A stretch of 36,444 nt of DNA. Source: a virus. Within the stretch, counting starts at the first letter, position 1. Every line of letters starts with the position of its first letter. The stretch is from positions 1 through 36,444 of the IMG/VR virus record IMGVR_UViG_3300042465_001527; one strand, written 5' to 3'. The translations under genes and the position numbers were made by a program. Under the pieces are notes generated by a model. The model worked only from the letters and a program-made list of their open reading frames with translations, was not told the DNA's origin and ran no database searches. Positions 13,847 through 25,778 of the stretch are shown here, piece by piece.

Positions 13847-13982
13847 TTTTTGTCTCCAGTTTAGCTATCAAATCGATAGTGTGTTGCCATGTACGCGTTG
13901 CGGCGTTGGCGTCTTTGCGGTGAATTTTCAATATGGATCGCGCCGCTTTGAGTTGCGCTTTCCACAGGTCTAGTCTGGTCAT
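13815..13982 (-). CDS. Small basic helical protein (55 aa)
   Basis: A 55-residue Lys/Arg-rich protein (MTRLDLWKAQLKAARSILK... ending TKIGNHLAKTKR). Its ATG overlaps the helicase stop (ATGA), giving translational coupling, and its 3' end overlaps the next gene. The basic character is compatible with nucleic-acid contact, but no known motif is seen. Confidence 0.6.
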   Translation of the reverse strand: MTRLDLWKAQLKAARSILKIHRKDANAATRTWQHTIDLIAKLETKIGNHLAKTKR

Positions 13983-15328
13983 TTAAGTTCCTCCATTGCA
14001 ATATCCGACACCGCCCGCTTGTCATGCAAGGCGGCAAAAATTTTCTCGTCAATCGTTTTGTTGGTCAGCATCACGTAGCACCACACAGCGTGTGCTTGGC
14101 CTGAGCGGTGCAAACGACCAATGGTCTGTTCGTACAACTCCAAACTCCACGGCAGGGACAGAAACACCATGTGACACCCACCGTGCTGGAGGTTGAGCCC
14201 GTGGCCGGCTGACTTTGGATGGACGGCCAATAGCCTGACTTGTCCAGCATTCCATCGCTCGATGGCTCGGTCGTTGTCAAGAGTCGTGGGGTTGAACCGG
14301 CGCTTGAGTTCGGCAAGCTCTTCTTGATACTGGTAAACAATGATGGTATTTGCGTGTTGGTTCTCATCAAGCAACTCCTCCAAGCGATCAAATTTGTGCG
14401 GGCTAAACCACACCGGCGTCTGTGTGACAGTAAACTTGCCGGGTACGTCAGACGCCGTCTTGCGCGTGTCGTACACGAACCCGCTGGCCATTTGTTGCAG
14501 CTTGCCGGTCACCACACCCCCATTGGCCGCGATGGCTTTGGCGTCAGGGAACTCCACCACGAAGTCGGCCTTCATCTTCTCGTAGGGCTTGCGGTCGCTC
14601 AGGTCGCAACGCACCTCGACGACGTGCAGCGGGGGCAGCTTGTCTTTGTATTCGCCTGGCTCCAATACGAACGTCGCCGGCTTGATCTTGTCCATGACCT
14701 TGGCAAGCGACCCAACCCGTGGCGCCCACTCGCCAAACTCTTTGTTGATCAGCACAAAGTACTGTTGCATAAACGCGCCCTTGGCGCGGCCCAGCAAACT
14801 CTGGTCAACGATCTTGCATTGGCCAAACACGTCCTCCAAGCCGTTGCTGGTAAACGACCCGGTCAAGCCCCAGCGGATGGACACGCCTTTGATGATCTTG
14901 TCGAACGCTTTGAAACGCGCGCCTGATGGGTTCTTGAGCTTGGTGAGCTCGTCGAACACCAGCCCGTCCACTGGCAACCCATCGCCTGTTACGTCGCACA
15001 GCCCGGCCAGCCATTGCAGGTTGTCGTAGTTGATGACGATGACATTGGCGTCGCTGCTGAACACATCGTTGCGTTGCTTGGGCGTGCCCACCGCGATGGC
15101 CAGCTTCAGGTGTTTGCTCCACTTGGGTGCTTCAACGGGCCACACGTCGGTACAGACGCGCTTGGGCGCCACAACCAACCAGCGCTTGATGTGGCCGTCT
15201 TTGATCATGGCGTCCATGGCGGTCAGCGTAATTGCCGTCTTGCCAGCACCCACGGGCGCCAGCACCATGGCGCGGTCGTGCTCGTACAAGAAGTCAGCGG
15301 CCTGTTCTTGATAGGGGCGAAGGTTCAC
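13979..15328 (-). CDS. SNF2-type (SF2) DNA helicase/translocase
   Basis: A DNA-dependent ATPase of about 449 residues. Numbered from the chosen start, it shows LRPYQ near the N-terminus, Walker A APVGAGKT (24-31), motif II DELT (125-128) within VFDELTKLKN, motif III GLTGS, and SNF2 motif VI QTIGRLHRSGQ (401-411). DELT replaces the usual DEAH/DESH. I chose a GTG at 15328 because it gives a 4-base GTGA overlap with the upstream stop and a GGA-type ribosome site 8-10 bases before it; a GTG at 15343 would add 5 residues. It is paired with a VRR-NUC nuclease just upstream, a pairing common in phages and suggestive of recombination, fork processing or replication restart. Confidence 0.88.
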   Translation of the reverse strand: MNLRPYQEQAADFLYEHDRAMVLAPVGAGKTAITLTAMDAMIKDGHIKRWLVVAPKRVCTDVWPVEAPKWSKHLKLAIAVGTPKQRNDVFSSDANVIVINYDNLQWLAGLCDVTGDGLPVDGLVFDELTKLKNPSGARFKAFDKIIKGVSIRWGLTGSFTSNGLEDVFGQCKIVDQSLLGRAKGAFMQQYFVLINKEFGEWAPRVGSLAKVMDKIKPATFVLEPGEYKDKLPPLHVVEVRCDLSDRKPYEKMKADFVVEFPDAKAIAANGGVVTGKLQQMASGFVYDTRKTASDVPGKFTVTQTPVWFSPHKFDRLEELLDENQHANTIIVYQYQEELAELKRRFNPTTLDNDRAIERWNAGQVRLLAVHPKSAGHGLNLQHGGCHMVFLSLPWSLELYEQTIGRLHRSGQAHAVWCYVMLTNKTIDEKIFAALHDKRAVSDIAMEELK

Positions 15329-15519
15329 TTTGCGTTGTTCCACTCATCGGCAATTCGCTTTGCGTTCTCTTCGCTGGTCACCACCGCGCCGGGCTTGTCC
15401 GGGAACGTCAACACGTTCAAACCATTGCGGTTCATCACGCCCCACCAACCCATCTTGCCGCCAAGGTCTTCAGCGCGGTACGGGGGGAACGCAAAATACT
15501 TAGCGGGTACACCATCCAT
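15325..15519 (-). CDS. Hypothetical 64-aa protein between nuclease and helicase
   Basis: The ATG at 15519 is preceded by AAGGAG at 7-base spacing, so it is preferred over an in-frame ATG 30 bases upstream inside the nuclease gene. The product (MDGVPAKYFAFPPYRAEDLG, GKMGWWGVMNRNGLNVLTF, SEENAKRIADEWN) looks like a small alpha/beta domain. It overlaps the nuclease gene by 20 bases and the helicase start by 4. It may be a partner of this enzyme pair; the function is not known. Confidence 0.7.
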   Translation of the reverse strand: MDGVPAKYFAFPPYRAEDLGGKMGWWGVMNRNGLNVLTFPDKPGAVVTSEENAKRIADEWNNAK

Positions 15520-15913
15520 CAATTTGCTCCTTAGTCCACAAACACGCATAGCGCTGGTTCAGCAGTGCCATGTCCGACATAAAAATTTTCTGCAAGGGCG
15601 ACAACCGGCCACCCTTGGTCTTCAACTCCACAAACCATGTCGTGCCATCAGGCAGGCAAGCGATCCGGTCAGCCACACCTTTGCGCCCAGGTGAGGTGAA
15701 CTTCCACGTCTTGCCGCCCATGCGCTCCACAGTCCAAACAAAATATTTTTCGATCTCTTTTTCAAGCATTGGTTGCGGCTTAAAACCCCAGCGTTCTTCA
15801 AGGCGTTTAAGCGTTTCTTCGCGTGCAAGCTCTACATGCGCCAGCATTTCTTGATTTAATTCATTTAAACGACGCAGCTTTGCACGCCGCGCGTCATCCG
15901 TTACCTCGTTCAT
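15500..15913 (-). CDS. VRR-NUC domain nuclease
   Basis: A 137-residue protein. Residues 1-45 form a charged helix; residues 50-137 show the PD-(D/E)XK pattern of VRR-NUC enzymes: E53 (KEIEKYF), G-V-A-D82 (GRKGVADRIACL), E96-L-K98 (WFVELKTKGGRLSPLQ) and Q108. VRR-NUC proteins such as FAN1 and phage homologues cut branched or flap DNA. It is the first gene of leftward cluster 1, with the ATG 29 bases downstream of an extended -10 promoter, and precedes the helicase. Holliday junction or flap processing during replication is likely by family. Confidence 0.88.
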   Translation of the reverse strand: MNEVTDDARRAKLRRLNELNQEMLAHVELAREETLKRLEERWGFKPQPMLEKEIEKYFVWTVERMGGKTWKFTSPGRKGVADRIACLPDGTTWFVELKTKGGRLSPLQKIFMSDMALLNQRYACLWTKEQIDGWCTR

Positions 15914-15941
15914 GTTGGCTTTCCTGTTGTTGATGTCAAAA

Positions 15942-15974
15942 AGTTTAGCACACTTTTATTTTTTGTGCTACAGT
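15942..15974. promoter_or_regulatory. Divergent overlapping promoters inside a palindrome
   Basis: An inverted repeat TAGCACA - 11 bases - TGTGCTA spans 15946-15970. Each arm runs into an extended -10: TGTGCTACAGT on the plus strand (15964-15974) and TGTGCTAAACT on the minus strand (15942-15952). Both fit TGnTAnAnT. Predicted starts lie about 20-25 bases from the replication block (ATG 16004) and the nuclease gene (ATG 15913). No good -35 is visible at 17 bp on either side, so extended -10 recognition or an activator is implied. A dimeric regulator on the palindrome would control both operons. Confidence 0.65.
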
Positions 15975-16003
15975 CAAGGCTCATTAACTAAAGGAGAGTC
16001 CAC

Positions 16004-16153
16004 ATGGAACTGAAAATCACCACCAAAGAAGCAGAGAAAATTCTCTTGGAATGGGCGCAAGCCAAATTCCCAGATGCCTTCAATTCAGTAGAAATCAAAA
16101 CCTACACTTACAGCGGCGAAATCAAATTCACTAAAGAGGAAACACCAGAATGA
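16004..16153 (+). CDS. Hypothetical 49-aa protein, first gene of the replication operon
   Basis: A strong ribosome site (AAAGGAGA) precedes the ATG. The product starts MELKITTKEAEKILLEWAQ and ends in beta-like, charged residues (SVEIKTYTYSGEIKFTKEE). It lies just behind the divergent promoter and couples to the next gene by ATGA. The small alpha/beta protein is not recognised; the position suggests early expression. Confidence 0.7.
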   Translation: MELKITTKEAEKILLEWAQAKFPDAFNSVEIKTYTYSGEIKFTKEETPE

Positions 16154-16341
16154 ACGCATTCCCCAACCCCAACAGAACAGACCAAACAGGCATGACACTG
16201 CGGGATTACTTTGCGGCAAAAGCTATACAAAGCCTAATCGCTTTATTGCCATCGATAACCGAGATAAATGAGCTCCATTTGGCCAAGTGGTCTTACAAGA
16301 TAGCAGACAAAATGATGGAGGCACGCAATGCAGCACAGTAA
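16150..16341 (+). CDS. Conserved phage hypothetical protein (63 aa)
   Basis: It contains GMTLRDYFAAKAIQSLIALLP and ends YKIADKMMEARNAAQ, a layout I know well from short proteins in many phages of Proteobacteria (MTLRDYFAAKA ... Y-x-x-AD-x-M-x-x-AR). No function has been assigned to my knowledge. It overlaps the upstream stop (ATGA) and the next gene by 14 bases, so it is coupled to the nuclease gene. Confidence 0.8.
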   Translation: MNAFPNPNRTDQTGMTLRDYFAAKAIQSLIALLPSITEINELHLAKWSYKIADKMMEARNAAQ

Positions 16342-17455
16342 CATCGTCGGCGGCTCGACCGCCAAGCGCGTCATCAACTGCCCAGGCTCAGTGGCCTTGG
16401 TGCAAAAGATGCCGCCCCAGCCCAGCAACAAATACGCCGATGAGGGCACGCTGTTGCACAACGTCATTGCTGAGATCGTGATGACCGACAACCCGCCCGA
16501 GCATTACCTGGGCACCAAGTACGAAGACCAAGTGCTCACGCAAGAGTTGATTGAAAATAAACTGGTGCCTGCACTGGCCGCGCTTGATGAGATTGACCCA
16601 ACCAAGGAGATGGAAATTGAAGCTGAAACTCGCGTTGGCTTTGGCGATCTACTGCCTGGTGTGTTCGGTAGTACTGATCTTATTGGCCGGAGTGGACAAC
16701 GCGCTGTCGTTTTGGATTGGAAGTTTGGCGATGGTGTTATGGTTGACGTGGTGGAAAATCCGCAGTTGATGTTCTACGCCGCTGCGGCCATGCGCACTGA
16801 AAGCGCCAAGTGGGCCTTTGATGGTGTTGATGAGATCGAGTGCGTGATCGTGCAGCCGCCCCAAGTCAAGCGCTGGGTGACTACGCCAAAGCGCATCGCT
16901 GAGTTTGAGTTGCAGTTGGTGCAAGCGGTCAAGCTGGCGCAAAAGCCAGACGCCGAACTCAAGACCGGCGACCACTGCCGCTGGTGCGCAGCCAAGCCCA
17001 TCTGCCCACAAATGACTGGCGCTGTTGACCGGGCTTTGAAGACATCTATCGAGTCTTTGGACGCGCCGCAGATCAGCGCGTATCTGAAGAACGCCGACAT
17101 GCTGGAACAGTGGATCGCTGACCTGCGCGCGCTGGCGCTTCAGATGCTCGACAGCGGTGCTAAACTGCCTGATTACAAGTTGGTGGCCAAGCGTGCCATC
17201 AGACAGTGGACTGACGAAGACAAGGCCAAAGTCGCCCTGTTTGCGTTCGGTCTCACAGAATCTGAGGTGATGGAGACATCAATCATTTCACCGGCCAAGG
17301 CTGAGAAGGCGCTCAAAAAGCGCAAGCAAGCCCTGCCCGATGATCTGGTCGTCGCCGTCAGTTCGGGTACCACCATCGCGTCTGAGAGTGATCCCAGGCC
17401 GGCGGTGGTTCAAATCGGGAAGCAGTTGACTGCTGCCCTTTCTAAACTTCAATAA
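16328..17455 (+). CDS. Cas4/RecB-fold nuclease, DUF2800-like
   Basis: A 375-residue protein. RecB-family nuclease motifs appear in order: G40-x3-H44, GSTD117, D130-W-K132 (VVLDWKFGDG) and Q146-x3-Y150. Four cysteines, C18 (RVINCPGS) and C217/C220/C226 (HCRWCAAKPIC), are placed as in Cas4/AddB-type 4Fe-4S nucleases. DUF2800 proteins of this kind neighbour phage polymerases. It probably resects or trims DNA ends during recombination-dependent replication. The Lys-rich C-terminus (about 270-375) may bind DNA or a partner. Next come a candidate ssDNA-binding protein and a polymerase. Confidence 0.87.
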   Translation: MQHSNIVGGSTAKRVINCPGSVALVQKMPPQPSNKYADEGTLLHNVIAEIVMTDNPPEHYLGTKYEDQVLTQELIENKLVPALAALDEIDPTKEMEIEAETRVGFGDLLPGVFGSTDLIGRSGQRAVVLDWKFGDGVMVDVVENPQLMFYAAAAMRTESAKWAFDGVDEIECVIVQPPQVKRWVTTPKRIAEFELQLVQAVKLAQKPDAELKTGDHCRWCAAKPICPQMTGAVDRALKTSIESLDAPQISAYLKNADMLEQWIADLRALALQMLDSGAKLPDYKLVAKRAIRQWTDEDKAKVALFAFGLTESEVMETSIISPAKAEKALKKRKQALPDDLVVAVSSGTTIASESDPRPAVVQIGKQLTAALSKLQ

Positions 17456-17464
17456 GGAACAGAA

Positions 17465-18100
17465 ATGTCCAATTTAGTAGCGTTTTCTCAAGCGGGCTTG
17501 CCCGCAGTCTCCACCCTCTCAACCGCTTTACGCGCGATCCAAGCAGACGTAGGCCCAGCCGGCACAGTCATCCTGAAAATGGACAAGACTGGCCATTGGG
17601 TCTTCGGTGCCGATCAAACCGAAGTGGAAGACGACTCCACCTGGGCCATCAATCCTTTCAGCTTTGTCCACGGCTTCATCGCCTGGGGCGATGGTGAAGT
17701 GTTGGCCGAGAAGATGGCGTCGGTGTCGCAACCGTTGCCCGACCTTGATGAAGCGCCCCCCGGCGCCAAAAAAGGCTGGGAGACACAAGTGGGCATGAGC
17801 CTTAAGTGCATCAGCGGTGAAGACAAGGGCATGGAAGCGCGGTACACCACCACGTCAGTGGGCGGTAAGCGTTCTGTGCAGACCTTGGCTGTAGCGTTGG
17901 CAGAGCAGGTCGAAAAAGACCAAGCAAAGCCAGTGGCAATTGTGAAACTCAAAAAGGATCACTACGCCCACAAGTCCTACGGCAAAATCTACACCCCGGT
18001 GTTCGAGGTGCAAGAGTGGGTCAGCATGGACGGCGAGCCTGAGGTTGCCGAAGAGGCGCCCGCGCCTGCCCCCGCTGGCCGTCGTCGTCGGTCTGCCTGA
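17465..18100 (+). CDS. Candidate single-stranded DNA-binding protein
   Basis: A 211-residue protein preceded by AAGGA. Beta-rich segments (GTVILKMDKTGHWVFGADQ; MSLKCISGEDKGMEARYTTTSV; KPVAIVKLKKDHYAHKSYG) suggest an OB-like fold, followed by an acidic, Pro/Ala-rich tail ending in GRRRRSA. In comparable phage operons a DUF2815-type or similar ssDNA-binding protein sits between a DUF2800 nuclease and family A polymerase; that synteny is the main reason for the call. The terminal Arg cluster is unlike the acidic tail tip of bacterial SSB. The ORF is certain, the function moderate. Confidence 0.8.
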   Translation: MSNLVAFSQAGLPAVSTLSTALRAIQADVGPAGTVILKMDKTGHWVFGADQTEVEDDSTWAINPFSFVHGFIAWGDGEVLAEKMASVSQPLPDLDEAPPGAKKGWETQVGMSLKCISGEDKGMEARYTTTSVGGKRSVQTLAVALAEQVEKDQAKPVAIVKLKKDHYAHKSYGKIYTPVFEVQEWVSMDGEPEVAEEAPAPAPAGRRRRSA

Positions 18101-19998
18101 TGACTCTTTGGGTTGACTTTGAAACCCGTAGCGCCTGCGACCTAAAAGTCGCGGGCGTTTACAACTACGCTCAAGATGCAAGCACCGAAGTGCTGTGCAT
18201 GTCCTACGCATACAAGGATGAAGACGTCCAAACATGGACGCCCGACCAACCATTCCCCCGTTGGGTTGCAGAATATAAAGGCCCGATCTACGCCCACAAC
18301 GCAGCTTTCGAGCGCTTGATCTTTTGGTATGTCTTGCAGATCAACTTCGATTTAACACAGTTCGTCTGCACCGCCACCCAGGCCCGCGCCAACTGCGCGC
18401 CAGGTTCGCTTGAAGACGTGGGGCGCTTTGCTGGCGCGTCCATGAAGAAGGATCACCGGGGCTCGCAGTTAATCCGCTTGCTGTGCATACCGCCGTTCCG
18501 CAACGACCCCGAGCTCATGGCCGAGATGGTGGCCTACTGCGAGCAAGACGTGCGCGCCATGCGTTCGATCAGCAAGGCGCTGCGGCCACTCTCAGAGGAA
18601 GAACTACTCGACTACCACATCAACGAGCGCATCAACGACCGAGGCGTCTTGGTCGATGTGCCCTTGTGCAAGGCCGCTGTCAAGTACGCCAGCGATGAGT
18701 TGGTCGAGATTGAGCAGATCGTGGCCGAGGTCACCGAGGGCGCCATCACCAGCGTGCGCAGCCCCAAGATGCGCCAGTGGGTGATCGAGCGTGTGGGCCC
18801 GCAAGCCCTCAAGCTCATGGAGAAGGACGGTAAGTACAGCATCGACAAGACTGTGCGCGCCAATTTACTAAACTGTGAGGATGTCCCACCCCATGTTCAA
18901 GAAGTCATCCAATGCGCAGACGACCTTTGGGCGTCGTCGGTTGCGAAGTTCAGCCGCCTTGCAAGCCTGGCAGATGTCGAGGACAACCGAGTTCGAGGCG
19001 CGTTTGTATTCGCAGGCGGCAGCGCCACAGGCAGAGCCAGCAGCTATGGAGCCCAGGTTCACAATTTCACTCGCAAGTGCGCCGAATCGCCCGAGGACGT
19101 TAGAGTTGCAATGGTCAGAGGCCATTCAATTGTTCCTCGATTTGGAAAGTGCGTTACTGATGTCCTCAAGGGGATGCTCAGGCCCGCACTGATCCCTGCG
19201 CCGGGTAAGCAGTTGGTCGTGGCTGACTGGGCGGCGATAGAGGCCCGAGCCAACCCATGGCTCTCAGGCCGTGGGGACGATAAGCTGGCCATCTTTGCCA
19301 AGGGCGAGGACGTGTACAAGGTCAACGCTGCCGCCACCTTTGGCGTGCGGGTCGACGAGGTAACGAAAGACCAACGCCAGATCGGCAAGGTGCAAGAGCT
19401 CGCCTGCGGCTTTGCCGGCGGCGTGGGCGCCTTCGCGGCCATGGGCCGCGCCTACGGCGTGCAACTCACTGAGTTTGAATCCAAGCGCATGGTGGACGCA
19501 TGGCGTAGGGCAAACCCTTGGTCTGTGCCCTATTGGCAAAACCTTGAGGAAGCCTACACCCGCGCGATGCGCAACAAGGGCCATGAGTTCAGCGTGGGGC
19601 GGGTCACCTACCTATTCGACGGCCAGCATCTCTGGTACGCTCTGCCCTCCGCGCGGGTGCTGTGCTACCCATTTGCCAAGCTGGACGCCGATGGCGTGAG
19701 CTACGCCAAAGCCGCGTGGAAACCAGCAGCCGATGCAAAAGAATGGCCGCGTGCAAGGCTTTGGAAGGGTCTAGCGTGTGAGAATATCACGCAGGCCACC
19801 GCCAATGATTTGTTGCGCCATGCGCTGCGCCAGCTTGATGACGTGGTGCTCCATGTGCATGACGAGGTGGTCATTGAGACCGACCGGCCAGAGGAAATGG
19901 CCGTGCGATTGAAAGAGGTGATGTGTACGCCGCCGCCATGGGCCAAGGGCTTGCCCCTTGACGCAGAGGTGGCAATCATGTCGAGATACGGCAAATAA
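18100..19998 (+). CDS. Family A DNA polymerase with 3'-5' exonuclease domain
   Basis: A 632-residue replicative polymerase. The exonuclease domain has Exo I WVDFETRS (D6, E8), an Exo II-like AHNAAFERLIF (66-76) with E at the usual Asp position, and Exo III YCEQD (146-150). The polymerase domain has motif A VVADWAAIEARA (D376), motif B RQIGKVQELACGFAGG (426-441) and motif C HVHDEVVIE (D588, E589). There is no 5'-3' nuclease domain, as in T7-like and many phage polymerases. The ATG overlaps the preceding stop (TGATG). A GC-rich hairpin follows the stop. The Glu in Exo II occurs in phage homologues I recall, so proofreading may be intact. Confidence 0.93.
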   Translation: MTLWVDFETRSACDLKVAGVYNYAQDASTEVLCMSYAYKDEDVQTWTPDQPFPRWVAEYKGPIYAHNAAFERLIFWYVLQINFDLTQFVCTATQARANCAPGSLEDVGRFAGASMKKDHRGSQLIRLLCIPPFRNDPELMAEMVAYCEQDVRAMRSISKALRPLSEEELLDYHINERINDRGVLVDVPLCKAAVKYASDELVEIEQIVAEVTEGAITSVRSPKMRQWVIERVGPQALKLMEKDGKYSIDKTVRANLLNCEDVPPHVQEVIQCADDLWASSVAKFSRLASLADVEDNRVRGAFVFAGGSATGRASSYGAQVHNFTRKCAESPEDVRVAMVRGHSIVPRFGKCVTDVLKGMLRPALIPAPGKQLVVADWAAIEARANPWLSGRGDDKLAIFAKGEDVYKVNAAATFGVRVDEVTKDQRQIGKVQELACGFAGGVGAFAAMGRAYGVQLTEFESKRMVDAWRRANPWSVPYWQNLEEAYTRAMRNKGHEFSVGRVTYLFDGQHLWYALPSARVLCYPFAKLDADGVSYAKAAWKPAADAKEWPRARLWKGLACENITQATANDLLRHALRQLDDVVLHVHDEVVIETDRPEEMAVRLKEVMCTPPPWAKGLPLDAEVAIMSRYGK

Positions 19999-20000
19999 AA

Positions 20001-20020
20001 AGCCCGCTGGCAGGCGGGCT
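20001..20020 (+). terminator. Hairpin between polymerase and primase-helicase
   Basis: An inverted repeat AGCCCGC / GCGGGCT with a 6-base loop starts 3 bases after the polymerase stop. No T run follows; the ribosome site of the next gene begins within 6 bases. It is more likely an mRNA stabiliser or partial attenuator than a full terminator. Confidence 0.4.
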
Positions 20021-20037
20021 CTTAAAGGAGAGACATT

Positions 20038-22305
20038 TTGGAATTTCTGGATTTTATTACAAAACTTGCCCCAAGTGGCGAGACAGCGTTAATTGTCAGG
20101 CAAAAACCACAGTTGAAAGACGGCGAGATACAACTCCACGCTGATGGGGCCGTCAAATGCACATGGCCGGCATTCCTGCCCGACCCCAAGCGCATCAAAG
20201 CGGATCAAGCCTGGTACGGCAACACGGCCAGCTTTATCATCGACCGCTTCACCGAGGGCCGCGTGTCAGCGTCAGCGGCCAACTGCGAATACATCCTGGT
20301 GATGATGCTGGACGACATTGGCACCAAGTCCAAAACGCCCCCGCTCGACCCGACCTGGATCATGGAAACCTCCCCCGGTTCGTTTCAGTGGGGTTACGCC
20401 TTCAGCGATCAGCCGACCAAGGCCGAATTCAGCGCGGCCATCAAGGCCATCGCCGAGGCGGGATACACCGACCCTGGCGCCTGCAACTCGGTGCGCAACT
20501 TCCGACTGCCGGGCTCAGTCAACCTCAAACCAGGCCGCGACAACTTTGCCGCGCGCCTGGTGACTTTTCATCCAGATCGTGAGTTCAGCCTCACCGACAT
20601 ATGCGCCGCCTTGGGTGTCACACCAGTGGAGCCCGACTCGCTCACCTTGCGCCCGATCCGCATCTCAGACGATGGCGCGGACGATGTGATGGCGTGGCTC
20701 AGTGGCCAGGGTCTGCTGCTCTCCAAGCCCAATGGCGAGGGCTGGGCGGGCGTCATCTGCCCCAACAGTGCCGAGCATACCGACGGCAACCCAGAGGGGC
20801 GCTACATGCCCGCCAACCGGGCGTATTGCTGCCTTCACTCGCATTGCGTTGACTTCGATTCCCGCGCCTTTTTGACGTGGGTGGCCGACCAAGGTGGCCC
20901 CGCCCACACCCCCGGCTTGCGTGAGGAACTGCTCACCCAGGCTATGGAATCCGTGCGCGCCAAACTGACCCCCACCGCCGACTATCCAGACGAGGCCGCC
21001 CGCGTCATCGCCGAGGTGGAGCGCAAAGAACTGGGCCGGGTCGAGAAAAACGAGTGGTTTGAGCGCTTCGCCTACGTGCAGACCGATGACGCCTTTTTCG
21101 ACATGACCGACCGCCGGGAGGTCTCGCGCAACACTTTCAACGCCTTGTACCGGCACATCGACTGCAAATCAATCCATAACGCCAAGCGCCGCATCGAGGC
21201 CGCAACGTCCTTCGATGAGAACCGCCAAGGCAAAGGCGCCAAGTCCCTGGTTGGCATCACCTACGCCGCGGGCGCGTCCGTGCTGGTGGCCAGAGAGGGG
21301 CAGGTATATGGCAACCGCTGGCGCGATGCGCGCCCGCAGCCGGTGGCCGGTGACCCGGCTTTGTGGTTGGCCCATGTGGAGCGCATGGTGCCCGAGCGTT
21401 TCGAGCGTGAGCATTTGCTAAACGCTCTGGCCCACAAAGTACAGTTTCCAGGCCACAAGATCAACCACGCCATCCTTTTGGGCGGTAATCACGGGTCGGG
21501 CAAAGATACCCTCTTTGCCCCCTTCTTCTGGGCCATTGGTGGCCCGTCCAAGCACAATTGCTCCTTGGTCAAGAATGAAGAGCTCACATCCCAGTGGGGT
21601 TACGCGCTGGAGTGCGAGGTAATGGAGATCGCCGAGCTCAGGCAGGCCGAGGCGAAAGACCGCCGGGCGTTGGAGAATACCCTCAAGCCCATCATCGCCG
21701 CGCCCCCTGAGCTCCTCATGGTCAACCGCAAGGGCTTGCACCCTTACATGGCGCTGAACCGGGTCTTTGTGATCGCCTTTTCCAATGAGCGAGTGGCCAT
21801 ATCGATCCCCTCAGAAGACCGCCGTTGGTTCGTCCTATGGGCCGATGCCCCCAAGCTCCCAGAAGCTCAGGCCGTGAGCTTATGGAATTGGTACCAACAC
21901 CGGGGCGGCTTTGAGGCCGTGGCCCACTACCTGCACACTCGTGACGTGTCCGCGTGGAACCCGAACGCAGCGCCCCCCATGACTGAGGCCAAGTCCATCA
22001 TGGTCGAGCACGGCATGAGCGGCGCTGAATCATTCCTGGTTGACCTCATGCGTAGACGTGCCGGTGAGTTTTCCCGCGGCGTGTGCGGTGGCCCCTTTTA
22101 TGGGCTTTGCGACCGGCTCCAGGGCATGGCCCCCGGTGGGGTCAAGGTGGTGCAGGCCGCGCTATTGCACGCCTTCAAAGAGGCGGGTTGGATTGACATG
22201 GGCCGCATCAAGTCGCGCGACTTTGAGACCAAGAAGCACGTTTTCTGCGCCCCGGAGCTTGGCGAGTATTCGCGCAGCGATCTTAGGCGCATGATTGAAG
22301 TATAA
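20038..22305 (+). CDS. Primase-helicase fusion (AEP-like, zinc motif, DUF5906-like helicase)
   Basis: A 755-residue multi-domain replication protein starting at TTG (20038), with AAAGGAG 8-14 bases upstream. Residues 40-200 resemble an archaeo-eukaryotic primase domain (hydrophobic run then DD at 92-93; RNFRLPGSVNLKPG at 153-166). Residues 235-275 hold a Cys/His cluster (C241, H247, C264, C265, H267, H269, C270) that could bind zinc. Residues 340-755 resemble the DUF5906/SF3-type helicase: Walker A GNHGSGKDT (483-491), followed by acidic and sensor segments (ECEVMEIAELRQAE; NRVFVIAFSNER). It would prime and unwind for the upstream polymerase. Domain boundaries are estimates. Confidence 0.87.
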   Translation: MEFLDFITKLAPSGETALIVRQKPQLKDGEIQLHADGAVKCTWPAFLPDPKRIKADQAWYGNTASFIIDRFTEGRVSASAANCEYILVMMLDDIGTKSKTPPLDPTWIMETSPGSFQWGYAFSDQPTKAEFSAAIKAIAEAGYTDPGACNSVRNFRLPGSVNLKPGRDNFAARLVTFHPDREFSLTDICAALGVTPVEPDSLTLRPIRISDDGADDVMAWLSGQGLLLSKPNGEGWAGVICPNSAEHTDGNPEGRYMPANRAYCCLHSHCVDFDSRAFLTWVADQGGPAHTPGLREELLTQAMESVRAKLTPTADYPDEAARVIAEVERKELGRVEKNEWFERFAYVQTDDAFFDMTDRREVSRNTFNALYRHIDCKSIHNAKRRIEAATSFDENRQGKGAKSLVGITYAAGASVLVAREGQVYGNRWRDARPQPVAGDPALWLAHVERMVPERFEREHLLNALAHKVQFPGHKINHAILLGGNHGSGKDTLFAPFFWAIGGPSKHNCSLVKNEELTSQWGYALECEVMEIAELRQAEAKDRRALENTLKPIIAAPPELLMVNRKGLHPYMALNRVFVIAFSNERVAISIPSEDRRWFVLWADAPKLPEAQAVSLWNWYQHRGGFEAVAHYLHTRDVSAWNPNAAPPMTEAKSIMVEHGMSGAESFLVDLMRRRAGEFSRGVCGGPFYGLCDRLQGMAPGGVKVVQAALLHAFKEAGWIDMGRIKSRDFETKKHVFCAPELGEYSRSDLRRMIEV

Positions 22306-22347: not shown

Positions 22348-22407
22348 TCAAAGGTCAAGCAGCAGCGCCAGTATAGCGGCCAGAACGACCGCGCAGATTA
22401 GCGCCAT
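22348..22407 (-). CDS. Possible 19-aa hydrophobic micro-protein
   Basis: An ATG overlapping the end of the upstream gene by 10 bases opens a 19-residue peptide that is nearly all membrane-helix residues (MALICAVVLAAILALLLDL) and ends just before the terminator. The ribosome site is weak (GGTGG). It could be a real last gene of the operon or chance; the hydrophobic composition and the presence of similar peptides elsewhere in the genome raise the odds. Confidence 0.35.
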   Translation of the reverse strand: MALICAVVLAAILALLLDL

Positions 22408-22619
22408 GCTGCCACCAATGGCGCGGCATCATACGCAGGGGCAGGGCAGGCCACAGTGAAAAGCCCCGCGCCCCGCTTGATGCGCCCCCAGGCGTCCTTT
22501 CGGTTTTGGTTCACCAGCTCCCCCCGCTTGACCGCGCCATAGACTTGATCGCGCGTGAACCCCTCCGCTTCGATCTCCACCATGGTGCGCGGTGTTTCGC
22601 AAAAATCGATTAAGGTCAT
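22398..22619 (-). CDS. Small winged-helix-like protein (73 aa)
   Basis: The start MTLIDFCETPRTMVEIEAEGFTRDQVYGAVKRGELVNQ has the helix-turn-helix cadence of a winged helix (two helices, then a recognition-helix-like DQVYGAVKRGELV), followed by a wing-like strand (KRGAGLFTVACPA). I recall similar short phage proteins as hypothetical. Its ATG overlaps the preceding stop (ATGA). DNA binding is inferred from the pattern only. Confidence 0.7.
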   Translation of the reverse strand: MTLIDFCETPRTMVEIEAEGFTRDQVYGAVKRGELVNQNRKDAWGRIKRGAGLFTVACPAPAYDAAPLVAAWR

Positions 22620-22696
22620 GGCGCATCCCCTTTAGGCGGTGCCGGCGGTGGCGCGTATCGTCTCAGAATGTCCTCAAAGATCGGATGCAGCATCAT
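22616..22696 (-). CDS. Micro-protein (26 aa)
   Basis: GGGAGG precedes tandem ATGs; the peptide MMLHPIFEDILRRYAPPPAP then KGDAP ends with TGA overlapping the next ATG (ATGA). The short helix plus Pro tail resembles small conserved phage peptides of the form MHPxFxxIL. Coupling and a good ribosome site support translation; the function is unknown. Confidence 0.5.
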   Translation of the reverse strand: MMLHPIFEDILRRYAPPPAPPKGDAP

Positions 22697-22964
22697 CGAC
22701 CTCCCATGCGCTATCTTCGCCGCTGGCCAGCGTGATGTTTTCAGACAATGGCTGCCAGGCCCACTTAGTGAGCCCCACGTTCAAGCGCTCATAAGCGGCC
22801 ACATATTCGGCGGTGCTCATGCTAGCGCCATGGGGTGGATAGAACCGCTTAACGCCCCCTTTAGACTTGACCGGCTTATGCTTGCCGGTGCATTTGGCGT
22901 GGTGCGCCATGATGCCATCGCGCGCGGTTTTATAGGTGGTGTTTCCAATTTTTACGGTTTGCAT
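22674..22964 (-). CDS. Hypothetical 96-aa protein
   Basis: The start at 22964 has GGAGA 7 bases upstream; an in-frame ATG 78 bases further upstream would add a hydrophobic stretch that is actually the micro-protein locus read in another frame. The product begins MQTVKIGNTTYKTARDGIM, has a basic His/Lys-rich centre (HHAKCTGKHKPVKSKGGVKR) and ends acidic. No known domain was recognised. It is a member of leftward cluster 2. Confidence 0.65.
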   Translation of the reverse strand: MQTVKIGNTTYKTARDGIMAHHAKCTGKHKPVKSKGGVKRFYPPHGASMSTAEYVAAYERLNVGLTKWAWQPLSENITLASGEDSAWEVDDAASDL

Positions 22965-22965
22965 G

Positions 22966-23052
22966 TTACGGTCTCCAAATAAAAAGATCCAAAGCCACCA
23001 CAATGATGGCCACCAAAAAAACAATACGCTGCGCGCGCTCAAAAATAGTCAT
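22966..23052 (-). CDS. Single-pass membrane micro-protein (28 aa)
   Basis: The 28-residue peptide MTIFERAQRIVFLVAIIVVA then LDLFIWRP has a basic N-terminus and one membrane helix. Its ATG overlaps the TGA of the upstream gene (ATGA) and it ends one base before the next ATG. The tight junctions make it a likely real gene. Inner-membrane location with N-terminus in the cytosol is expected from the positive-inside rule. Function unknown. Confidence 0.55.
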   Translation of the reverse strand: MTIFERAQRIVFLVAIIVVALDLFIWRP

Positions 23053-23204
23053 AAGTTCCCCAGAAAAAAGTGATCAAAATCAAAAACGGCCACATAGAAC
23101 CCGCGTGGGCTCGCGTGCACTTCGTACACCCAGGCATCGGCATCATCGATGGCCAAGGCATCAGCGAGAGCCTGCGCGGCTCCCTTGGTGTTGAAGTAGG
23201 TCAT
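23049..23204 (-). CDS. Hypothetical 51-aa protein
   Basis: The product MTYFNTKGAAQALADALAID..., DADAWVYEVHASPRGFYVAV, ending FDFDHFFLGNL, looks like a small alpha/beta domain (helix, then two strands with aromatic residues). It starts behind a GAGAGG-like site and couples to the downstream membrane micro-protein by ATGA. It is short enough to be missed by automated callers. Function unknown. Confidence 0.6.
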   Translation of the reverse strand: MTYFNTKGAAQALADALAIDDADAWVYEVHASPRGFYVAVFDFDHFFLGNL

Positions 23205-23392
23205 GCACTAACCCTCTCATGCAATGCCTGCGCGCGCGCATGATGGCCCAGCATCTCGCGGATGATGGCGTGGCGTGGCGCCCGATGGGCGTGGGCGCGC
23301 GCAGATGGCCGCAGGCGCCCGTAGGTGGCGCGGATAACCGCACGTGTGCTGGCCCATACGGGCACGTTTAACCGCAGATAAGTACTAAACAT
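23201..23392 (-). CDS. Hypothetical arginine/histidine-rich protein (63 aa)
   Basis: I prefer the start MFSTYLRLNVPVWASTRAVI, preceded by GAAGGG, over an in-frame ATG 36 bases upstream. The rest is strongly basic (RATYGRLRPSARAHAHRAPR; HHARAQALHERVSA) and predicted helical. The composition suggests nucleic-acid or acidic-partner binding. I recall similar short proteins in betaproteobacterial phages, without assigned function. Its 3' end overlaps the next gene by 4 bases. Confidence 0.65.
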   Translation of the reverse strand: MFSTYLRLNVPVWASTRAVIRATYGRLRPSARAHAHRAPRHAIIREMLGHHARAQALHERVSA

Positions 23393-23403
23393 GATGATTC
23401 CCT

Positions 23404-23631
23404 TCAAATAGTGCAGCATCCGCAGCATGGATAGTCTTCGCAGCGCCCGCGCGGGTTGCGCGTAAACGTGCGATAAACCCCTTGATCGTTTAACGTGATT
23501 GTGTTGATCTGGCCATCGCTTGGCTCACCAGTGATCCATGCGCGCCGCGTGGCCGTGCAATATTGAATCTCATCTCCCGGATATATCGGCGCGCCGGTGC
23601 GCGCGTCTTTGCCCTTGAATTTTGCCTTCAT
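23404..23631 (-). CDS. Small cysteine-rich protein (75 aa)
   Basis: The product begins MKAKFKGKDARTGAPIYPGD and resembles a small beta-barrel (EIQYCTATRRAWI; INTITLNDQGVYRTFTRNP), ending in a cysteine cluster CEDYPCCGCCTI (C64, C69, C70, C72, C73). The cluster could bind zinc or another metal. Start at 23631 is 4 bases after the upstream stop; an ATG at 23646 preceded by GGGGTGG would add MTIKT and overlap the upstream gene by 11 bases, and remains possible. Confidence 0.65.
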   Translation of the reverse strand: MKAKFKGKDARTGAPIYPGDEIQYCTATRRAWITGEPSDGQINTITLNDQGVYRTFTRNPRGRCEDYPCCGCCTI

Positions 23632-23635
23632 AGTC

Positions 23636-23878
23636 TTAATGGTCATACACCACCCCATTAGGCATAATTTTGGTGAGGTTTGCGCTGGGCACGTGGCGCA
23701 CGTTTGACCCATCTTCATTAGGCGCCCACGTGCCCGCAAAATCAACGGCCACCACCGGCCCATCGATGGCCACCACGTGGCCGCGCATGTCCGCCGTGCG
23801 CTTATCGTGCCCCAAGCGCTTGACCACGTGGCGCGCAAATGCCACCCGGTCGCCTACGTTAAATTTTAATGTCTTCAT
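23636..23878 (-). CDS. Hypothetical 80-aa KOW/SH3-like protein
   Basis: The ATG follows AAAGGAAAG at good spacing. The product MKTLKFNVGDRVAFARHVVK..., MRGHVVAIDGPVVAVDFAGTW, then SANLTKIM has the strand pattern of small SH3/KOW-like barrels: a GD-V start, a G-x-V turn, and VAVDF followed by a hydrophobic end. It could bind nucleic acid or protein. No annotated function known to me. Member of leftward cluster 2 with a 71-base gap before it. Confidence 0.7.
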   Translation of the reverse strand: MKTLKFNVGDRVAFARHVVKRLGHDKRTADMRGHVVAIDGPVVAVDFAGTWAPNEDGSNVRHVPSANLTKIMPNGVVYDH

Positions 23879-23949
23879 GGTTTACTTTCCTTTAGTTGAT
23901 CGACGCAACACGCGCCCGCATGGCCACCGCATGGCCATGCAGTCACGCA

Positions 23950-24609
23950 TTAGGCCGCGAGCTTGATATCAATTACCCGTTTTTTCGTGCCATGCGCGGG
24001 AAAGCCCACAATGGCCGCGCGCTGGCGCTGGCATAGCTGGCAGCTGGCGCAGCTGACATCATCTCTCTGTGTGGCCGGGCAGATAACCACCGGGCGCCCG
24101 GCTGGCGTCACTGTGTTGGCCGTGGTGGTTGAAGGCAACACCACCACCACCGGGCCCGCTTGGTGATCGGCCAGCGCGTCGGCATCGGCCAGATCATTGG
24201 CCGACAGATTGACAGTGAAACCCCACGCGTTGGCGTGGCGTATCCATGCGATGCTGGCCGCATCGCGATGGTGTGAATACGTGAAACCGCGCTTACCCTG
24301 GTTTGCGGCCACCAGCTGGCCCAGTTTGACAGCGTCAACCGAACCGCCGGCCGTGGGCAGATCGCCCGCTTGATTGTGGCGCCACAGCTGGCCATCAGGC
24401 AGCGCGCTGATGGTTTCGCAAAATTGGCCCCATGACGTGCCACGCGTGCCCGCGCTGACAGCGGCCCAATGCAAAGCCAGTGGCCCGCTGGCCGCGTAGC
24501 ACTCAGCGCGCATTGCGCAATCTGGCGGGCATGATGCCTTTTCGGTGGTGCTGACAGGAATGGGCCCGGTTTTAGCGTTGGCGCTTTTGAGTGTGAGATG
24601 TACTTGCAT
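23950..24609 (-). CDS. Cysteine-cluster protein, Gp88/DUF7227-like
   Basis: A 219-residue protein with two cysteine groups: C27-x3-C31-x5-C37 (CPPDCAMRAECYAASGP) and C177, C187-x2-C190-x2-C193 (ICPATQRDDVSCASCQLCQ). The opening NAKTGPIPVSTTEKASCPPDC resembles phage Gp88/DUF7227-type proteins as I recall them, which carry metal- or Fe-S-binding cysteine sets and have no settled function. The end contains VGFPAHGTKKRV. It is the longest gene of leftward cluster 2 and follows a large perfect palindrome in the leader. An early host-interaction or nucleotide-metabolism role is speculative. Confidence 0.78.
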   Translation of the reverse strand: MQVHLTLKSANAKTGPIPVSTTEKASCPPDCAMRAECYAASGPLALHWAAVSAGTRGTSWGQFCETISALPDGQLWRHNQAGDLPTAGGSVDAVKLGQLVAANQGKRGFTYSHHRDAASIAWIRHANAWGFTVNLSANDLADADALADHQAGPVVVVLPSTTTANTVTPAGRPVVICPATQRDDVSCASCQLCQRQRAAIVGFPAHGTKKRVIDIKLAA

Positions 24610-24641
24610 GGTTTACCTTTCGTTTATTTGAGTGGATTTTT

Positions 24642-24680
24642 CTCCAGGCTTACAAAGTTTGTAAGCCTGGAGCATTTTTA
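24642..24680 (+). terminator. 31-bp perfect palindrome, plus-strand terminator candidate
   Basis: Bases 24642-24656 and 24658-24672 are perfect inverted copies (15 bp each, one central base), starting CTCCAGGCTTACAAA. On the plus strand the hairpin is followed by CATTTTTAGTTTT, as in an intrinsic terminator; on the minus strand it is followed by A residues. It lies between two leftward genes, so on leftward mRNA it would act as a stabilising or processing hairpin, while it would end rightward readthrough from the replication block. Confidence 0.5.
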
Positions 24681-24860
24681 GTTTTGCGCTAGCATGTTAT
24701 CTAATGCATCTTCAATGACGCCAACGGTGTAAACGTTAGCGCGCAGATTGTTCGGGGCCAAAATATTGTCGTCAATGAAAACCCATTTATCGGTAGTGGC
24801 GCGCCATTCCTGCGCCTGCGCCAGCGTCAGGGCCGGGATAATTTGCTGTAATTTGCTCAT
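24678..24860 (-). CDS. Hypothetical 60-aa protein
   Basis: A small mainly helical protein, MSKLQQIIPALTLAQAQEWR then TDKWVFIDDNILAPNNLRAN and VGVIEDALDNMLAQN. No motif is recognised. It lies in leftward cluster 2, 48 bases after the upstream gene, and its stop is followed immediately by the 31-bp palindrome. Coding is supported by fit into the operon and absence of competing frames. Confidence 0.65.
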   Translation of the reverse strand: MSKLQQIIPALTLAQAQEWRATTDKWVFIDDNILAPNNLRANVYTVGVIEDALDNMLAQN

Positions 24861-24908
24861 GGTTTGCCTTTTGATTGACGGCCAGCGCGTGGCTGGCCGG
24901 GTTGACGT

Positions 24909-25133
24909 TTAAATAGTGGTGAATCGATCCGAAATAATAAATTCGGGATTTTGATCAACGCCCAGGCGCTGCGCCAATGCCAGAATTTCGGCTTGCTGGG
25001 TTTTCTTTGGCGCGCTACGCCAAAGCATAGACAAACCGCGCGCAAGGTAATTTGCGCCAAAGTGCTGCATTTTCTGCATTGTGGCCACTTCGCGGCGTTG
25101 CCATTTATTAAGTGTTGTGGGCAAATTAGACAT
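24909..25133 (-). CDS. Hypothetical 74-aa protein, first gene of leftward cluster 2
   Basis: The start MSNLPTTLNKWQRREVATMQ is preceded by a GAAAG site and lies about 47 bases downstream of the predicted transcription start of the leftward promoter. It is a helical, basic protein with no recognised domain (KMQHFGANYLARGLSMLWRS; KTQQAEILALAQRLGVDQNP). An ATG 93 bases upstream in frame would sit before the predicted mRNA start and is rejected. The first position in the operon suggests early expression; the function is unknown. Confidence 0.7.
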   Translation of the reverse strand: MSNLPTTLNKWQRREVATMQKMQHFGANYLARGLSMLWRSAPKKTQQAEILALAQRLGVDQNPEFIISDRFTTI

Positions 25134-25216: not shown

Positions 25217-25404
25217 ACGCCCACATATTTTGACCTTCGATTGTGTGGGGTTATTGTGTGTGGATAGTGTGGGCGCGATTGTGGGCGCATTTGGGGCTAT
25301 TGTGGACAACGTGCGATTGACCGGGCTTGAGAGTGAAAACTAGGGGTTTGTGGACAATGTGGACTACTTTAAATGATACGCTAGATGATAGATATTTTTG
25401 TAAT

Positions 25405-25422
25405 ACTATATAGCTATACAGT
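25405..25422. promoter_or_regulatory. 18-bp near-palindrome in the AT-rich segment
   Basis: ACTATATAGCTATACAGT is an inverted repeat with a single mismatched pair (25408/25419), centred in the AT-rich 25364-25430 stretch. It may be a dimeric regulator site or part of a DNA-unwinding region. No assigned factor. Confidence 0.4.
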
Positions 25423-25507
25423 AGGTGTATGGCTCACGAATCCTCACAACTCCCCGTTTCAGACGCAAAAAAAAACGCGTGGGTACAACGCCCACATTGT
25501 CCACAAA

Positions 25508-25543
25508 TGCGCTACCTGGTGCGCTACCTGGTGCGCTACCTGG
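25508..25543. repeat. Three perfect tandem copies of a 12-bp unit
   Basis: TGCGCTACCTGG occurs three times head-to-tail, followed by a partial fourth copy (TGCGC). The unit is just over one helical turn, so bound proteins would line up on nearly one face. The array abuts the inverted TTGTCCACAAA copy at 25497. It is too short and lacks spacers for CRISPR. An iteron or operator array is more plausible than coding sequence. Confidence 0.7.
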
Positions 25544-25619
25544 TGCGCGATGACCCCGGCCAGCGAGCGAACGGGTCGTGTGGACACTGCCCACATGACC
25601 CCCCACCAAAGTACTACAT

Positions 25620-25638
25620 TGTAAGGTTCTGTAAGGTT
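25620..25638. repeat. Direct repeat TGTAAGGTT, two copies 10 bp apart
   Basis: TGTAAGGTT at 25620-25628 and 25630-25638, separated by one base. The helical-turn spacing suggests a possible binding site in the control region. No further copies were noticed nearby, apart from a partial TTGTAAGC at the leftward -10. Confidence 0.4.
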
Positions 25639-25707
25639 GTCGGCTGCATGGCCGGTGGCCGGTTGCTGTTTGCTTGGAGGGGGGTGGGTAGGGCCGAGCG
25701 CCGAAGG

Positions 25708-25742
25708 TCACGGCAGCGGAGGGGCCGTGAACAAAATTTTTT
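25708..25742 (+). terminator. Possible terminator upstream of terS
   Basis: TCACGGC and GCCGTGA (7-bp stem, 9-base loop) are followed after 6 bases by TTTTTT. It would insulate terS from rightward transcription entering from the control region. The T run is offset from the stem, so efficiency is uncertain. Confidence 0.35.
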
Positions 25743-25778
25743 ATAGCCCACATTGCCCACACGACCCACAAATTTTTT

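Follow-up and report, generated by a model that had tools for sequence, protein, structure and literature searches.

A dense array of short, regularly phased repeats lies in front of the terminase genes of this phage, and the question raised by the locus is what the array does and which protein reads it. It occupies a divergent intergenic region, with the first leftward gene on one side and terS on the other, within a viral stretch of 36,444 nucleotides that was analyzed in full and is referred to as the window. A sequence-only reading had proposed an iteron-type origin, a control region or a packaging site.

Composition and layout of the array

The motif TGTGGRC was counted over the complete 36.4-kb window, and the 33 exact copies recovered (dinucleotide shuffles: 13.6 ± 3.4; 0 of 100 shuffles reached 33) show that the enrichment is real. 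Within 25219-25770 (552 bp) there are 12 exact units where ~0.2 are expected; the "about fifteen copies" mentioned earlier are arrived at when one-mismatch units (such as TGTGGAT at 25259 and ACCCACA at 25764) are added. The 9-bp phasing was confirmed: five tandem pairs have starts exactly 9 bp apart (25259/25268, 25349/25358, 25490/25499, 25746/25755 and 25755/25764), with 0 expected. The inverted 18-mer noticed before (17/18) likewise held and contains a perfect 16/16 core (25347-25362 and 25492-25507), between the arms of which lies an AT-rich stretch (25365-25450, 67% AT, peak 77%; genome 46%). The elements of the array are:

25219-25225, minus strand: single iteron TGTGGGC, abutting a leftward promoter-like site
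25259-25274, plus strand: iteron pair TGTGGATAG-TGTGGGC, 9 bp apart (spacing count)
25280-25286, plus strand: single iteron TGTGGGC (exact-motif count)
25301-25309, plus strand: single iteron TGTGGACAA (sequence reading, motif count)
25349-25364, plus strand: left core iteron pair TGTGGACAA-TGTGGAC, facing the AT-rich core (motif and spacing; same place in relatives)
25365-25489, no strand: spacer between the core pairs, AT-rich core peaking at ~25380-25409, proposed melting site (AT content, orientation in relatives)
25490-25505, minus strand: right core iteron pair TGTGGACAA-TGTGGGC, which repeats the left pair in inverted orientation (inverted repeat, motif, spacing)
25579-25595, both strands: two facing iterons, TGTGGAC (plus, 25579) and TGTGGGC (minus, 25589) (motif count)
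25746-25770, minus strand: terS-proximal triplet GCCCACATTGCCCACACGACCCACA (spacing count, comparison among TerS relatives)

That such an array represents chance or low-complexity enrichment, or a tandem duplication without function, is hardly credible. Recent tandem expansion did take place in some relatives, one of which (L063) carries ~15 TGTTGGCAG units, but no shuffle reached the observed motif count, and in the relatives the orientation, place and phase of the units are conserved while their sequence changes together with a protein segment (see below).

A simple promoter scan yielded a leftward sigma-70-like promoter at 25216-25187, adjoining the first array unit, and did not detect a terS promoter; of the two promoters that the array was said to bracket, only the leftward one was thus recovered. 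Rfam gave no match. Two further intergenic elements were seen: a 12-bp repeat, TGCGCTACCTGG, in three copies at 25508-25548 (a similar 12-bp period occurs in the relatives L002 and L056), and a conserved block at 25677-25745, GGGGGxGGGTAGGGCCG...CGGAGG...GAACAAATTTTTTT, which is seen ahead of terS in nearly all of the relatives that were read.

A primase-helicase with a predicted winged helix

The window contains a replication block (13979-22305) that encodes an SNF2-type helicase, an exonuclease-like protein, a PolA-type polymerase and a primase-helicase, followed by small leftward genes (22398-25133) and then by terS (25794) and terL (26209). The small leftward genes were considered as readers of the array and rejected, as they are not conserved among the phages that keep it. 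The parts of the primase-helicase gene that matter here are:

20038-22305, plus strand: primase-helicase with an AEP primase-like N-terminus and an NrS-1/D5-type SF3 helicase, the proposed origin-binding initiator (sequence and fold matches)
21955-22302, plus strand: C-terminal domain, residues 640-755, with a predicted winged helix from ~residue 662 (structure prediction)
22210-22227, plus strand: codons of the wing residues K725-S726-R727-D728-F729-E730, which covary with the iteron (covariation in relatives)

The N-terminus matches RepB_primase just below the Pfam cut-off and the AEP domain of S-2L PrimPol by fold, and the helicase region matches an NrS-1-like primase-polymerase both by sequence (E 0.0065) and by fold (E 1.2e-11). 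The whole predicted model matches the NrS-1 PrimPol CTR, poxvirus E5/D5, AsfvPrimPol and PriRep1 with dsDNA. AlphaFold2 modelled the full protein with low overall confidence (pLDDT 72, pTM 0.40) and the C-terminal domain with high confidence (core blocks >90), the latter in the order helix, strand, helix, helix, two-strand hairpin, helix, with residues 725-730 forming the hairpin turn. We label this domain a predicted winged helix, and place residues 725-730 in its wing, because of this strand/helix order and of weak MarR/PadR-like matches. The isolated domain had no significant Foldseek match in the PDB (best E 0.12) and matched phage NrS-1-like helicases in BFVD.

Covariation of wing and iteron in related phages

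Relatives were collected as 80 loci from a TerL scan and ~210 more from three primase-helicase scans. Like the window, ~200 related phages have a 9-bp-phased array in the position upstream of terS, and at most loci the stretch richest in 9-bp lags is the one that immediately precedes terS. The comparison with related phages that had been suggested as a check thus upheld the place and the 9-bp phase and revealed that the unit itself varies: TGTGGAC(AA), TGTAGGC(AA), TGTTGGC(TA), TGTCGGC(TA), TATGGAC(AA), TTTGGGT(CA) and TGTGTGC(CA). As the phase is constant while the unit sequence changes, the reader should be a co-evolving, phage-encoded protein. The same variation bears on the earlier hint that the units are host DnaA boxes at which host DnaA initiates. 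Although TTGTCCACA is one mismatch from TTATCCACA, and one relative (L075) has one true TTATCCACA, close relatives swap TGTGGAC for TGTTGGC, TGTAGGC or TTTGGGT with place and spacing retained, the non-DnaA-box sequences TTTGGGTCA, TGTTGGCTA or TGTAGGCAA standing in the same 9-bp phase, and we regard a role of DnaA as extremely improbable.

We then aligned the C-termini of the primase-helicases by array type and found that GR-x-K725-S-R727-x-x-E730-TKKH is the segment that varies in step with the unit. Over ~230 loci, the following wings and units pair: KSR..D/E with TGTGGAC, ASR[TAL][HY][SG] with TGTARG[CT], ASREYQ with TGTTGGC, SSREFQ with TGTCGGC, KSSLHD with TATGGAC and AS[GA]D with TTTGGGT. 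For the statistics, the unit label of a phage was the commonest 7-mer of the region of the form T.T.[GAT][GA][CT], a pattern chosen after seeing the arrays, and the labels were assigned blind to the protein sequence; related contigs were thinned at 98% identity, a step that does not remove recombination and linkage. Three kinds of evidence carry the argument: i) the ranking of protein columns; ii) repeated parallel changes; and iii) the contrast with TerS.

A mutual-information scan over 481 variable columns in 110 non-redundant phages placed E730, R727 and K725 at the top, with R727 first for iteron position 2 (NMI 0.72) and K725 and E730 first for position 6 (NMI 0.30 and 0.21); the best TerS columns reached 0.20 and 0.08. 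All cases with R727 have G at position 2 (84/84), and all with G or A at 727 have T there (20/20); K725 occurs with A at position 6 in 40/51 and A725 with G in 54/56. In terms of units, K/R wings have 360 GGAC, and A/R wings 0 GGAC versus 235 N[ATC]GG[CT]. Independent contrasts, computed on a tree from which the primase-helicase C-terminus was left out, gave ~9 changes in the same and 0 in the opposite direction for A at position 6 with K725 (p ~0.004), ~9.6/0 for GGAC with an acidic residue at 730 (p ~0.002) and 6/0 for G at position 2 with R727 (p ~0.03). When TerS was held at ≥90% identity (28 phages), 9 phages with ASR wings had TGTARG arrays and 19 with KSR wings had TGTGGRC arrays, with no overlap, and two relatives (L003 and L020) combine a TerS identical to that of the window with TGTARGCAA arrays and a diverged primase-helicase. 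To judge from these alignments, wing loop and repeats appear to have changed together many times, in what looks like a readable protein-to-DNA code.

The TerS contrast also decides on the packaging reading, in which the array would be a pac site recognized by TerS. The array does lie directly upstream of terS, yet identical TerS proteins occur with different arrays, which follow the primase-helicase, and the TerS columns hold little information on the unit; for the array as a whole we consider a pac site very unlikely. What speaks for it is the terS-proximal triplet, GCCCACATTGCCCACACGACCCACA, which follows the TerS lineage and not the primase-helicase, being kept in 27/28 phages with near-identical TerS whatever the wing or origin type. 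Since it is retained regardless of the wing, it is part of a different element or a leftover, and it probably stands apart from the array proper: a TerS site, an operator or a relic are possible, and 25746-25770 is the one part of the array for which the pac reading is conceivable.

Two relatives deserve separate mention. In G009, which has nearly the same virion genes and a RepA-like replication module, the array is absent, and CGGATGA repeats 9-10 bp apart overlap the 3' end of the RepA-like helicase gene (L106:13337-13471); these repeats are probably the own origin of G009. An apparent exception to the pairing is L219, which has an ASG wing and TGTGGAC units. Its array (L219:5552-6106) is chimeric, with TTTGGGT pairs flanking the AT-rich core and TGTGGAC units confined to the terS side, and it is a recombinant that took its distal units from another iteron type. 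As the core pairs fit its wing and the distal units do not, the pairs adjoining the AT-rich core are probably the ones that count.

Proposed origin and its relation to known systems

We read the array as the replication origin of the phage and its own primase-helicase as the initiator that would dock on the iterons via the C-terminal wing, with a probability of roughly 0.86. The iteron-type origin suggested beforehand is strongly supported, and the proposed reader is the protein that had then been named only as a fallback. In 104 relatives the plus strand carries most of the iterons to the left of the AT peak (+262/-51), and the minus strand most of those to its right (+130/-468). This layout bears on the possibility that the primase-helicase binds the array solely as a transcription regulator of the divergent leftward genes and terS, with replication starting elsewhere. 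An operator would suit the divergent intergenic location and the leftward promoter-like site that touches the first unit, but in most relatives the iterons on the two sides of an AT-rich core are oriented towards one another, which is the layout of PICI origins (PMC6092414), and the proposed reader is a helicase and no dedicated regulator; we judge a purely regulatory role unlikely. Under the origin reading, the early genes may in addition be controlled by binding close to the leftward promoter. The minimum of the cumulative GC skew falls near 24 kb, where gene direction also switches, and for this reason the skew was left out as evidence.

We infer that the primase-helicase binds, melts and initiates at the array in the following manner. 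The C-terminal winged helix would dock on the 9-bp iterons and its wing loop (725-730) would read the bases, R727 going with G at position 2 and K725 together with the acidic residue 730 with A at position 6. At the tandem iteron pairs, which face each other across the AT-rich core, two SF3 helicase rings would be loaded, the rings would melt the core, and the attached primase domain would start bidirectional priming, to be extended by the PolA-type polymerase of the phage.

Fused initiators of this general kind are familiar from phage P4, the alpha protein of which is a primase-helicase with a C-terminus that binds short repeats at the origin (ori/crr); by description, P4 is set apart by its primase type and its repeat. 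The closest model is the pri-rep-ori type of PICI/SaPI satellites, in which, according to PMC6092414 and PMC7581432 (citing Ubeda 2007), the initiator is an AEP primase with an SF3 helicase, the C-terminal domain of Rep recognizes the iterons, and two iteron sets flank an AT-rich region. The window likewise has an AEP primase with an SF3 helicase and iterons on both sides of an AT-rich region, and C-terminal iteron recognition is indicated by covariation only. Unlike the PICI/SaPI elements, it is a phage and no satellite, its iterons abut at 9 bp, and many iteron specificities occur inside one phage lineage. PICI origins lie directly 3' of the initiator gene (PMC6092414), whereas the array stands in front of terS at ~3 kb from the initiator gene, with the leftward genes in between; the proposed origin would work like the pri-rep-ori type, and because of this distance we do not file it as a member.

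The PDB entry closest to the primase-helicase in both sequence and fold is the PrimPol of phage NrS-1 (PMC7102993, PMC8718748), in which start-site choice has been assigned to the N-terminal half and not to a C-terminal wing (PMC8718748); in NrS-1 an 8-nt priming site is present in two copies and no iteron array has been reported, and the PrimPol Tail domain was described as a novel fold (PMC7102993, PMC8718748). Covariation of an initiator DNA-binding domain with origin iterons, including specificity swaps, has been described for RepA/ori of the PLE satellites of Vibrio cholerae (PMC8263062), where, unlike in the window, the initiator is a RepA_N protein with roughly 30-bp iterons and no primase-helicase wing. 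For the iteron-related domain of geminivirus Rep, specificity was inferred from a comparison of natural variants (PMC6669703 and references therein); these are ssDNA plant viruses with an unrelated, rolling-circle mechanism.

The proposal would assign an origin and its initiator from sequence alone in an abundant, almost uncultured phage lineage, and extend a satellite type of origin to phages. The ~110 non-redundant phages with at least 7 iteron types form a natural mutational series from which a wing-based code for DNA recognition can be read. At what we take to be even odds, this lineage of tailed phages repeatedly shifts the iteron specificity of its origin by substitutions in the six-residue wing, in a natural recognition code that couples residue 727 to base 2 and residues 725 and 730 to base 6; the probable driver is conflict over the origin, be it incompatibility on superinfection, satellites or nucleases directed at origins. 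Origin specificity turns over fast among phages whose virion genes are nearly the same, so that incompatibility of origins, or warfare aimed at them, can be put to the test. As no relative of the primase-helicase was confirmed in GTDB genomes, there is no prophage or host link. Named phages showed no direct DNA similarity to the window, and MW202483 is the only one that encodes a TerS homologue.

Some relatives carry additional elements around the array. A palindrome array, GTTAGTGnnCACTAAC, with copies ~28-29 bp apart, lies between the iterons and terS in L039, L045 and L256 but does not occur in the window. In L047, L055 and L037, HNH-like or MKFRKKPVEIEATQ-type genes are inserted between terS and terL. 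Phage DSL-LC05 (L111:3553-4293), which has a more distant primase-polymerase, carries CCACTGGGTCA-type repeats in the same place.
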